This document shows positions 13,793-16,052 of a stretch of 20,424 nucleotides of DNA, one piece after another (the first letter of the stretch is position 1; each line of letters begins with the position of its first letter). The stretch is from a virus. A model generated the notes under the pieces. It made no database searches and was not told where the DNA came from. It saw nothing but the letters and a program-made list of their open reading frames with translations. A program made the position numbers and the translations under genes. The stretch spans positions 1 through 20,424 of the IMG/VR virus record IMGVR_UViG_3300026534_000121; one strand, written 5' to 3'.

Positions 13793-14224
13793 TCAGCCCA
13801 ATGGATCAGCGGTGGTGTAGGTTAAAATGATAGGGACGATGGCCGCTTTTAGCGCCTCGGCCCCTTCAACCGGCAGGTCGACCGGCTGCGGGGCTTCGGC
13901 CTCGGTCCAGTCGCACAGACCGCCGAGAGTGCGATCGGCTGAGATTGCGCTGGCCAGTTCGGCCAGCAGCGTATCAAAAGCAGCATCGCGAGCGGTCGGT
14001 GTTTTACCCTGCACAATCACCTCGATCTCGGCGCGGTGTTCATAATGGTACTGCAACGGCGACAGCGTCACCTCCGGCGTTCCGGGATCACCGTCGCGCA
14101 GAATTAGCAGGCCGCCAGCGGGTATGCGCTCGGGCAGGATTGCGCCCCGCAGCACGGTGGCACCGGGCACGGTTTGCAGTGCCGCAAGCAGGACTTGCAG
14201 GATGGTTTCTCGGGGTGTGGGCAT
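13793..14224 (-). CDS. Tail terminator-like protein (lambda gpU position)
   Basis: A 143-residue protein starting MPTPRETILQVLLAALQTVP, with a compact alpha/beta pattern (HYEHRAEIEVIVQGK, ARDAAFDTLLAELASAI). Similar phage proteins are often labelled 'acyl-CoA transferase' in databases; no such catalytic site is seen here. Its size (gpU has 131 residues), its place immediately before the tail tube gene, and the amphipathic N-terminal helix support the tail terminator role, capping the tail tube so it can join the head. It is the first tail gene downstream of the transporter cassette, and only a weak ribosome site precedes ATG 14224. A promoter for it may lie in the 14225-14352 gap. Confidence 0.72.
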   Translation of the reverse strand: MPTPRETILQVLLAALQTVPGATVLRGAILPERIPAGGLLILRDGDPGTPEVTLSPLQYHYEHRAEIEVIVQGKTPTARDAAFDTLLAELASAISADRTLGGLCDWTEAEAPQPVDLPVEGAEALKAAIVPIILTYTTADPLG

Positions 14225-14287
14225 GGTTTTGCTTAAAGCTGGTTAGAAGGTGGGAGTAAAAAATATCCTGTTTCGCGCTTTAACGTC

Positions 14288-14316
14288 ATGATTGGTAAAG
14301 CGATATGTTTGGTCAA
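14288..14316 (-). promoter_or_regulatory. Possible promoter for the downstream tail genes
   Basis: Minus strand: TTGACC (14316-14311) is a 5/6 match to a sigma70 -35 box. It is followed by 17 nt and AATCAT (14293-14288), a 4/6 match to a -10 box. The -35 lies inside one of the two tandem dyad repeats, so a repressor bound there could block it. The other repeat also contains TTGACC, but its -10 would be poorer. The match is modest and the region is AT-rich, so it may be chance. Confidence 0.35.
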
Positions 14317-14342
14317 TTTCACCAAATGGTCAATTTAACCAA
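14310..14342. repeat. Two tandem 16-bp operator-like repeats
   Basis: On the plus strand TGGTCAATTTCACCAA (14310-14325) is followed after one base by TGGTCAATTTAACCAA (14327-14342), differing at one position. Each copy is an imperfect dyad with TGGT and ACCA arms 8 bases apart, the pattern of a repressor-dimer operator. They lie in the gap between the transporter stop (14353) and the tail terminator start (14224), within AT-rich DNA unlike the rest of the operon. Confidence 0.65.
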
Positions 14343-14352
14343 GCAACGATCG

Positions 14353-15207
14353 CTATGATGTCGCAAGAACCATCACACCCATCAAAATAACGACCGCCCA
14401 AAACAAGCGATGCTTCAGATAGCCCTCACCCAGCAATACGCTTCCCATCAAGACAGTCAGCAGAACACTGAGCTCACGAACAGGCGCGACATATACCACT
14501 GGTGTAAAAGTCAGGGCAACGAGAACCAAAATATAGGCAAGAGGGTTAAATACTGCAATGATCAGGACACCGAAACGATGCGTGGTCCATATTTCACAAA
14601 GTAATTCGCGCCTCTTGAATGCTATGGGGGCAAGGAACACGGCACGCCCGACACTTGATGCATAGTCAAGCAATAGCGGCGGTATCAACAATGACGACAC
14701 GGCGTAAGCATCCCATGTAGTGTAGCTGCCAATCAAAAAACCCGCACTCACCCCAAATCCCAGTGATGTAATCGCACTCCCAGAAGTTTTCCTGGTGCCA
14801 CCGGTCAGCATCATAACGCCAATTATTATGACGGCCCCACCCACGGCCATTGGAGGTGACAGTATTTCCTCAAGAAAAATGACCGCAAAACTGGTCGATA
14901 AAATAGGCCCCGTTGCGCGTGCCGTCGGGTACACGACTGACAAATCTCCCTTTCTATATCCGATCTGCAAAAGCAGGAAATACCCTAAGTGAAGGGCTGT
15001 GCTCCCGACAATGAAAGCCACTTGATTTAAATCAAAGATGGCAACTGTCGAACCAAAATAAATCGCAAATGGTAGATAAATCAGAATTGAAAGGGTAGAG
15101 AAAAGCCAGACGAGTTCGGGTCCGGCATTGATACGTTTTACAAAATAGTTCCATGTTGCATGACAGAATGCAGCGGTTAGAACGAGCGCGAAACCAAGGA
15201 AAGACAT
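14353..15207 (-). CDS. EamA/DMT-superfamily inner-membrane transporter (phage moron)
   Basis: A 284-residue very hydrophobic protein with about ten transmembrane helices in two five-helix halves. It has the EamA pattern: an N-terminal half with ATWNYFVKR and DLSVVYPTARATGPILS, and a second half ending VYVAPVRELSVLLTVLMGSV and LFWAVVILMGVMVLATS. Family members export or exchange small metabolites or drugs; the substrate cannot be read from sequence. The ATG at 15207 is chosen because GAGG lies 5 nt upstream and the 14 extra codons to 15249 would sit in the leader RNA. GC is clearly lower than in the flanking phage genes, and the gene separates the Z-like and U-like tail genes that are adjacent in lambda. 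With its own promoter and leader it looks like an acquired accessory cassette. Confidence 0.88.
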   Translation of the reverse strand: MSFLGFALVLTAAFCHATWNYFVKRINAGPELVWLFSTLSILIYLPFAIYFGSTVAIFDLNQVAFIVGSTALHLGYFLLLQIGYRKGDLSVVYPTARATGPILSTSFAVIFLEEILSPPMAVGGAVIIIGVMMLTGGTRKTSGSAITSLGFGVSAGFLIGSYTTWDAYAVSSLLIPPLLLDYASSVGRAVFLAPIAFKRRELLCEIWTTHRFGVLIIAVFNPLAYILVLVALTFTPVVYVAPVRELSVLLTVLMGSVLLGEGYLKHRLFWAVVILMGVMVLATS

Positions 15208-15234
15208 ATGAACCTCAAGGACTTCAGGGTTACA

Positions 15235-15252
15235 GGCATGCGTAAGCACACC
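15235..15252 (-). promoter_or_regulatory. Alternative hairpin, candidate riboswitch expression platform
   Basis: GGTGTGC (15252-15246), loop TTAC, GCATGCC (15241-15235) can form a 7-bp stem with two G-U pairs. Its 5' arm is the same sequence that closes the riboswitch P3-like stem with ACACCC, so the two structures exclude each other. It lies about 28 nt upstream of the transporter start. There is no U-tract, which would suit control of translation rather than termination. Confidence 0.4.
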
Positions 15253-15355
15253 CGTCCATCCCCCCTGATCTTTTCGTCCTTGGGTGTCTGCCGTACACGG
15301 CTCATATCGGCGCTCGGTCCAAACCTGATTGCTCAGCGGAACCCTAGCCGCACAT
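15246..15355 (-). ncRNA. ykkC-family (guanidine-I class or variant) riboswitch candidate
   Basis: Minus-strand leader of the transporter. CTAGGGTTCCG (15347-15337) is the hallmark ykkC sequence. It sits in P1, formed by ATGT-g-CGGC (15355-15347) with GCCGATAT (15311-15304). Inside are a GCAA-tetraloop hairpin CTGA/TCAG (15336-15325) and GGACCGAGCGCCG (15320-15308), matching the conserved GGUCCGAGAG-like segment. A second hairpin GCCG-TGTA-CGGC (15301-15290) follows. Then ACACCC (15287-15282), AGGACGAAAAG and GGGTGT (15253-15248) form a P3-like element resembling the conserved ACACGG/GGAUAAAAG part. The P3 bases differ from canonical guanidine-I, so the ligand (guanidine, or a nucleotide as in ykkC subtype 2 RNAs) is open. 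No covariance search could be run. Confidence 0.68.
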
Positions 15356-15369
15356 GGATAGGTATGCGG

Positions 15370-15397
15370 AATTTAACAATAATCAGGGCAATGTAAA
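15370..15397 (-). promoter_or_regulatory. Candidate promoter of the transporter cassette
   Basis: Minus strand: TTTACA (15397-15392) is a 5/6 match to the -35 box. It is followed by 16 nt and TAAATT (15375-15370), a plausible -10, in an AT-rich block just after the stop of the Z-like gene (15426). Transcription would start near 15363, only a few bases before the riboswitch P1 stem, which is where an aptamer usually begins. That placement supports the call. Confidence 0.5.
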
Positions 15398-15425
15398 GGT
15401 TTTTCGCCAAACACGATTTTTTCAC

Positions 15426-16052
15426 TTACCCCTCCACCCATTTTTCCACAATCAAGCGCGGCACCGACCTCGCCACCTTGTCCGCATCCCGCGCCAGATC
15501 GAGCCGTTTTCGCAGTTTGACCTGCGGCACCAGAATAAAGATCGGCGCAGAAACCTGCCCGCGTCCAGTTTTAGAGCGCGACGCCACCGCCGTGCCGCGC
15601 GTGTTGATCCGCGCCTTTTCGGCCACCAGAAGGCTCGGCCCGTTGCGGCGGTAGATGAACCTCAACCGCATGCCGCGGCGGCGTTCCCATTCTCCGGGGG
15701 TGAGCCGCGCGCCACCACGGCCCTTGCCGGCGGCTTCGGTCGGGATGGCCAGATAGAAGCCGCGTTTCGAGCGGATCAGCATGCCCCTGTCATGGGCGCG
15801 GATGATCTTCGGGGCCTTGGACCAGACGAAGGCGGCGGCATCAAGGCTTTCGCCCCTTTCCGGATAGGTCTTGTTGCGGATGCTGCGGGCCAGCCGTTGC
15901 CCGAGGCCAGCGCCGGTGATCTGCCCGCGCCAGTCGGCCTTGAGATCACTGCCCGCCTGACGCATGGCGGCGGTGACAGCGCGTTCTCCCGCCAGAAACT
16001 CCGCCTGCATCATCTCGGCGAGATCCGGATCGATGTCGAGTTTCAGCTTCAT
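15426..16052 (-). CDS. DUF6441-type tail completion protein (lambda gpZ position)
   Basis: A 208-residue basic protein beginning MKLKLDIDPDLAEMMQAEFL, with LTPGEWERRRGMRLRFIYRR in the middle. I recognise the DUF6441 pattern of alphaproteobacterial phages from memory. Its place after the head-tail connector and its size (lambda gpZ has 192 residues) suggest a head-tail or tail-completion role at the neck. This is by synteny, not sequence. The start overlaps the previous gene's stop by four bases. The many Arg/Lys residues could contact DNA or the acidic connector surface. Downstream, the lambda order is interrupted by the transporter cassette. Confidence 0.72.
   Translation of the reverse strand: MKLKLDIDPDLAEMMQAEFLAGERAVTAAMRQAGSDLKADWRGQITGAGLGQRLARSIRNKTYPERGESLDAAAFVWSKAPKIIRAHDRGMLIRSKRGFYLAIPTEAAGKGRGGARLTPGEWERRRGMRLRFIYRRNGPSLLVAEKARINTRGTAVASRSKTGRGQVSAPIFILVPQVKLRKRLDLARDADKVARSVPRLIVEKWVEG

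Follow-up and report, generated by a model that had tools for sequence, protein, structure and literature searches.

The DNA analysed here, referred to below as the window (all 20,424 nucleotides of IMG/VR record IMGVR_UViG_3300026534_000121), comes from a phage of alphaproteobacteria (Rhodobacterales) that carries a ykkC-family sensor and an exporter gene within its head-tail gene block. A preliminary description of the locus had named a ykkC hallmark, a GCAA-capped hairpin, a second hairpin and a P3-like element in the leader of the transporter gene, and inspection of the sequence located every one of these elements on the minus strand. The features are as follows, in the order in which they are met on that strand:

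15426–16052, minus strand: upstream flanking gene, phrog_6367, annotated as minor tail protein in Rhodobacter phages (PHROG family)
14225–15425, minus strand: 1201-bp cargo unit with a phage structural gene on either side (9 relatives without insert, 67 with others)
15370–15397, minus strand: sigma-70-like promoter TTTACA-16-TAAATT, directly upstream of P0 (consensus scan, 9/12)
15354–15362, minus strand: 5' strand of the P0 helix, CCU-A-UCCAU (100% of cells paired and three compensated positions, 13 leaders)
15308–15350, minus strand: P1/P1a/P1b stem including CUAGGGUUCCG, the GCAA loop and GGACCGAG (model match, covariation and subtype key count)
15347–15337, minus strand: ykkC hallmark CTAGGGTTCCG (read from the sequence)
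15336–15325, minus strand: GCAA-capped hairpin CTGA-GCAA-TCAG (read from the sequence)
15320–15313, minus strand: segment GGACCGAG (read from the sequence)
15312, minus strand: C within the P1/P1a/P1b stem, at a position that is A in guanidine-I
15301–15290, minus strand: P2, the second hairpin, GCCG-UGUA-CGGC (DNA GCCG-TGTA-CGGC; sequence and covariation in 13 leaders)
15263–15289, minus strand: J2/3 and P3, AGACACCCAAGGACGAAAAGAUCAGGG (P3 covariation G-C/A-U; duplex with the Shine-Dalgarno sequence)
15284–15276, minus strand: proposed anti-Shine-Dalgarno strand, the 5' strand of P3 (predicted duplex with the Shine-Dalgarno sequence)
15279–15270, minus strand: P3-like element GGACGAAAAG (read from the sequence)
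15251–15259, minus strand: 3' strand of the P0 helix, AUGGA-C-GGG (covariation in 13 leaders)
15232–15255, minus strand: predicted hairpin ACGGGUGUGC-UUAC-GCAUGCCUGU, overlapping the outer P0 strand (minimum-energy fold)
15213–15222, minus strand: GUCCUUGAGG with the Shine-Dalgarno sequence, which in the free fold pairs with the 5' strand of P3 (fold and duplex computation)
14353–15207, minus strand: eamA, EamA/DMT-family transporter P0001, 284 aa (PF00892, 55.4 bits)
13793–14224, minus strand: downstream flanking gene, tail terminator phrog_4204 (PHROG family)

The aptamer is wider than the 15246–15355 originally proposed, as P0 uses 15362–15354 and 15259–15251, and the expression platform extends to about 15208. 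Judged by homology, the leader of about 160 nt (approximately 15366–15208) is a full-length ykkC-family aptamer. The promoter consensus scan returned 3 sites against 1.9 expected and is thus weak evidence alone; TTTACA-16-TAGAAT is found at the equivalent place upstream of the leader of the bacterial relative L002. The best NCBIfam match of the transporter is TIGR03340 (phn_DUF6), with 108.5 bits, which is below the 288-bit cut-off. By composition and substitution pattern eamA is foreign but maintained: its GC content is 47.8% compared to 61.6% for the window, and comparison with the L002 gene gave a dN of 0.20 with saturated dS, i.e., purifying selection.

Homologous leaders and their covariation

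The Rfam Guanidine-I model (RF00442) matched 15358–15258 over its whole length (model 1–107) with 32.7 bits (E 3.5e-6 in the 20-kb record; E = 2e-4 against all 4,227 Rfam families in a 271-base scan). Because this lies below the gathering score of 63 bits, a default Rfam scan of the window is silent and returns nothing above cut-off; for the guanidine-I model this is the outcome, no hit above threshold, that the preliminary description had named as one that would speak against it. A Metazoa_SRP match adjoining the aptamer (15.7 bits) is weak and was dismissed as chance.

Searching a genome collection with the transporter protein gave four close genes, three of which have the same leader (72%, 63%, and 56% identity), while the fourth (L005) is without a ykkC leader. 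At L005 2700–3500 the class A transporter homologue reaches 71% in the best segment and the readable frame stops at 158 aa. In 289 genomes of the bacterial class, RF00442 scored above the cut-off in 18, with matches of the guanidine-I type, and gave two weak matches of the window type (L036 and L037). A covariance model (R1) built from six window-type leaders was run against 395 genomes from the family to which G001 belongs, where it found seven further leaders (L076–L082, 82–127 bits), all before the same transporter gene, and this recovery of seven strong loci by a six-leader model makes the aptamer match more than chance. One more window-type leader (L201) was added by a phylum-wide RF00442 search, and in all 13 bacterial loci the window-type leader lies upstream of the same EamA/DMT transporter. 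These leaders are referred to as class A, which has 14 members including that of the window (13 of them in alignment A2), and all 14 precede the same transporter clade. Class B comprises the leaders of phage L017, L085/L203, plasmid L097 (found through plasmid protein matches), L199, and L200, with EamA genes downstream. In the transporter tree the class A genes, together with L005, are on one branch (100/98) with the window gene as sister to that of L002 (97/90), and the class B genes are on a separate branch (97/97) with two leaderless plasmid genes. As far as this tree extends, leader class and transporter clade go together. In the gene neighbourhoods of the class A leaders no conserved gene was found nearby apart from the transporter, and no hint of the ligand.

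Across 97 sources R1 matched only the window and L017, and exact-pattern scans of IMG/VR gave L017 as the one true match; the candidates L039–L062 and L101–L103 from these scans were rejected as chance matches, nearly all of them unrelated sequence without the ykkC layout. When phage records were searched at the protein level, the only EamA matches were about 30% identical and came from records with Salmonella or Escherichia as label; in plasmid DNA the cassette had no match.

In the 13 aligned class A leaders 91% of cells were paired in the structure consisting of P0, P1, P1a, P1b, P2, and P3, and pairing dropped to 26–48% when the structure was slid. Nine pairs were changed on both sides (shuffled mean 4.0), as were 21 cells (shuffled mean 6.9), and 0 of 500 shuffles were as high in either case, relatedness being uncorrected. 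Compensatory changes were seen in P0, P1, P1b, P2, and P3. In the P0 helix (consensus CCY-W-UCCAU / RUGGA-N-RGG) every cell was paired and three positions were compensated; P1b was the weakest helix, for which variable loop length in the alignment is at least part of the cause. The conserved core and P1-P2-P3 layout of the ykkC superfamily are thus both present. The preliminary description had let its ykkC-family assignment depend on compensatory changes among homologues; such changes were found and, together with the end-to-end Rfam match, they bear the assignment out.

Subtype of the RNA

The conserved adenosine A46 of guanidine-I is a pyrimidine in subtypes 2a and 2b, and this one position suffices to tell guanidine-linked gene contexts from others (PMC6031431). 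The position is C in 19/19 EamA-linked leaders of classes A and B, including all 14 of the window type, whereas 31 guanidine-I-type controls had A (28) or G (3). The window itself has C15312, the pyrimidine expected of ykkC subtype 2. J2/3, read directly from the sequences, is CACC in the window type versus CACGG in guanidine-I, and the P0 helix is a feature of the PRPP aptamer that is absent from guanidine-I (PMC6031431). The window RNA is very probably not a guanidine sensor and would belong to a branch of ykkC RNAs with an orphan ligand. Of the order and spacing that had been likened to guanidine-I/ykkC, the ykkC layout stands, but the key residue, J2/3, P0, and the sub-threshold score do not agree with guanidine-I. 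The suggestion that the divergent P3 hints at a different ligand appears to hold as well.

The genes that define subtype 2d are EamA/phn_DUF6 and TauE (PMC7266159; PMC5912903), and the window leader as well as all 13 homologous loci are situated upstream of such an EamA gene. We therefore favour, with a probability of about 0.72, that the RNA is a ykkC subtype 2 RNA associated with EamA genes, the kind that has been published as 2d, and that it was captured by the phage along with its target gene; the fit to 2d is one of gene linkage. Likeness to the 2d candidate is seen in the ykkC core, the non-guanidine key residue, and the EamA/phn_DUF6 transporter downstream (PMC5912903; PMC7266159), while the window RNA differs, when set against the descriptions rather than a 2d consensus, in its location in a phage and in a covarying P0 that is absent from those descriptions. 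It is a real riboswitch-type RNA; its kind is known but orphan, and its location is unusual. A review from 2020 gives no ligand for 2d (PMC7266159), the discoverers guessed at one that is small, charged, and toxic (PMC5912903), and no later report of a 2d ligand was found in a literature search that covered only a minority of subscription papers. A small toxic ligand, with the transporter working in the direction of export, may be supposed for the window unit as well.

Extended conserved ends were described for 2a–2c and not for 2d (PMC5912903; PMC7266159), and for this reason class A may be a variant. Its hallmarks are the P0 helix, a CACCY J2/3, a purine-purine third step in P3, and a GGGGAUGG 3' flank. 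It is tempting to speculate that class A is a riboswitch class of its own, apart from guanidine-I and class B and with an orphan ligand, and that phages carry the sensor-exporter unit from one bacterium to another as an inducible protection cassette complete in itself, but we regard this as a tentative extension that may well not hold. The 14 window-type leaders with a covarying P0, and the distinct class B set, provide better-bounded constructs for ligand screens.

It is unlikely that the RNA is instead a 2a/2b/2c-like aptamer in which a nucleotide (ppGpp, PRPP, or NDP) switches on the transporter. The pyrimidine key, the fully paired P0 helix, and A-C-A-C-C in J2/3, as in A74–C78 of the PRPP/ppGpp aptamers (PMC6031431), are shared with 2b and 2a, but the linkage is to EamA genes only and never to purine or amino-acid biosynthesis, NUDIX, or HAD genes. 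Furthermore, PRPP and ppGpp riboswitches have biosynthesis genes and terminator control, compared to an exporter and proposed translational control in the window. Less probable still is a diverged guanidine-I riboswitch turning on a guanidine exporter. Guanidine-I (RF00442, subtype 1) is the nearest Rfam model and shares with the window RNA the P1-P1a-P1b, P2, and P3 layout, CUAGGGUUCC, CCGAG, and the AAAA loop, and known guanidine exporters are of the same transporter superfamily (PMC5912903). This is opposed by C in place of A in all 14 leaders, CACC in place of CACGG, the presence of P0, a weaker P3, and a score 30 bits below the gathering score where true guanidine-I loci of the same bacterial class have 77–98.

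As decay is frequent in phage cargo, and the window's P3 consists of no more than two standard pairs plus a purine-purine step, the leader could be imagined to be a non-functional relic carried along with the gene. This is highly improbable, since the window retains every residue that does not vary in the rest of class A, scores 139.9 bits with the class model, which it helped to build, and has an eamA gene under purifying selection.

Predicted switching

In the computed fold of the free leader the Shine-Dalgarno stretch is covered by the P3 5' strand (CC-CAAGGAC with GUCCUUG-A-GG, z -2.4), and the unpaired probability of the Shine-Dalgarno guanines is near 0. The same duplex is preserved by paired changes in L009 (CAAGGGC with GCCUUUG), and cognate P3/Shine-Dalgarno pairs have a mean of -10.6 kcal/mol compared to -8.4 kcal/mol for swapped ones (permutation p 0.0006). 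Pairing of this kind is present in the minimum-energy fold of 5 of the 13 leaders, with 11–14 pairs each. We propose that in the ligand-free state GUCCUUGAGG is held by the 5' strand of P3, CCCAAGGAC, so that the Shine-Dalgarno sequence is hidden, and that ligand binding would allow P0 to P3 to form and P3 to retain its own strand, so that the ribosome site is freed and the transporter made. For the window and its nearest relatives the duplex suggests that control is of this translational ON type, which agrees with reports that guanidine-I, 2a, and 2b behave as ON switches (PMC6031431). Compared to the sequestered fold, the aptamer fold is computed to be weaker by 19 kcal/mol, and the Shine-Dalgarno guanines are still partly paired locally in the aptamer fold; as the computation omits tertiary contacts, ligand, and co-transcriptional order, thermodynamics alone neither prove nor exclude switching. 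The folds computed for the L077–L082 group had no P3/Shine-Dalgarno duplex and the expression platform must therefore differ there. After P3, this class A subgroup is also set apart by AGAGGGG versus AGGGGGG.

The cargo site and a second capture

In 9 of the 76 relatives with both flanking genes these genes abut or overlap by a few bases, and the remaining 67 have other inserts at the junction, about 430–3840 bp long, in either orientation and many with one or two main genes. The window unit is thus an extra transcription unit absent from collinear relatives, and the EamA moron that had been proposed within the structural operon is indeed there. Ten cargo proteins compared with Pfam included AbiEi, AbiEii, ParD, ParE, a PIN-domain protein, YhaV toxin, KAP NTPase, DUF488, and an EamA transporter, and an Abi_2-like match was slightly under the cut-off. 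The junction between phrog_6367 and the tail terminator is, by this comparison of relatives, an established cargo hotspot, which in related phages holds toxin-antitoxin and abortive-infection genes, and the window insert is one among many. A metabolite-sensing RNA in the middle of a structural operon had been considered unusual; this is true of the place, but the site is not a random one. The cargo ends had no shared sequence except for a few bases beside the start of the tail terminator gene, and Rfam scans of 40 cargo loci gave two tRNAs only and no riboswitch. In one related phage (L164) the junction is occupied by another EamA transporter gene, which lies on the opposite strand and has no ykkC leader. 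That the unit is bacterial DNA joined to a phage contig during assembly, as the lower GC content of eamA might suggest, can hardly be credited when the position of the insert is precisely the junction that holds inserts in 67/76 relatives, both flanking genes are intact, and a second phage has a ykkC-EamA unit of its own within a bacterial contig of 3.2 Mb.

This second phage (L017, from IMG/VR) carries a class B ykkC-EamA unit (2777–1744, minus strand) between the large terminase and portal genes. Over 10.9 kb it matches part of the 3.2-Mb contig (G440:C4) without a difference and is therefore a prophage; the same alignment ruled out G440 as a non-phage copy of the unit, as it is the same prophage. 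That the two phages differ in both RNA class and insertion site implies independent captures, and the presence of a sensor-exporter unit at two structural-gene junctions in two unrelated phages suggests that the ligand matters to lysogens in nature. Riboswitches have been called rare in phages (PMC9004378). The glutamine riboswitch of methylophage Melnitz is likewise a metabolite-sensing RNA in a phage genome (PMC9004378), but RNA class, target, and phage group are different, and the window RNA serves a cargo gene.

The family of the window phage is at least partly temperate, as a 93%-identical flank (L184) is found past base 2,480,000 of a long contig from a bacterium. In the reading favoured here, a Rhodobacterales phage took the riboswitch from a bacterium along with its single target gene, and probably the promoter too, and a lysogen would gain an inducible pump that does not depend on expression of the tail operon. 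Right downstream of eamA (14340–14300, minus strand) there are two near-identical copies of TGGTKAAATTGACCA, each near-palindromic, which are possibly a regulator site brought in with the cargo.
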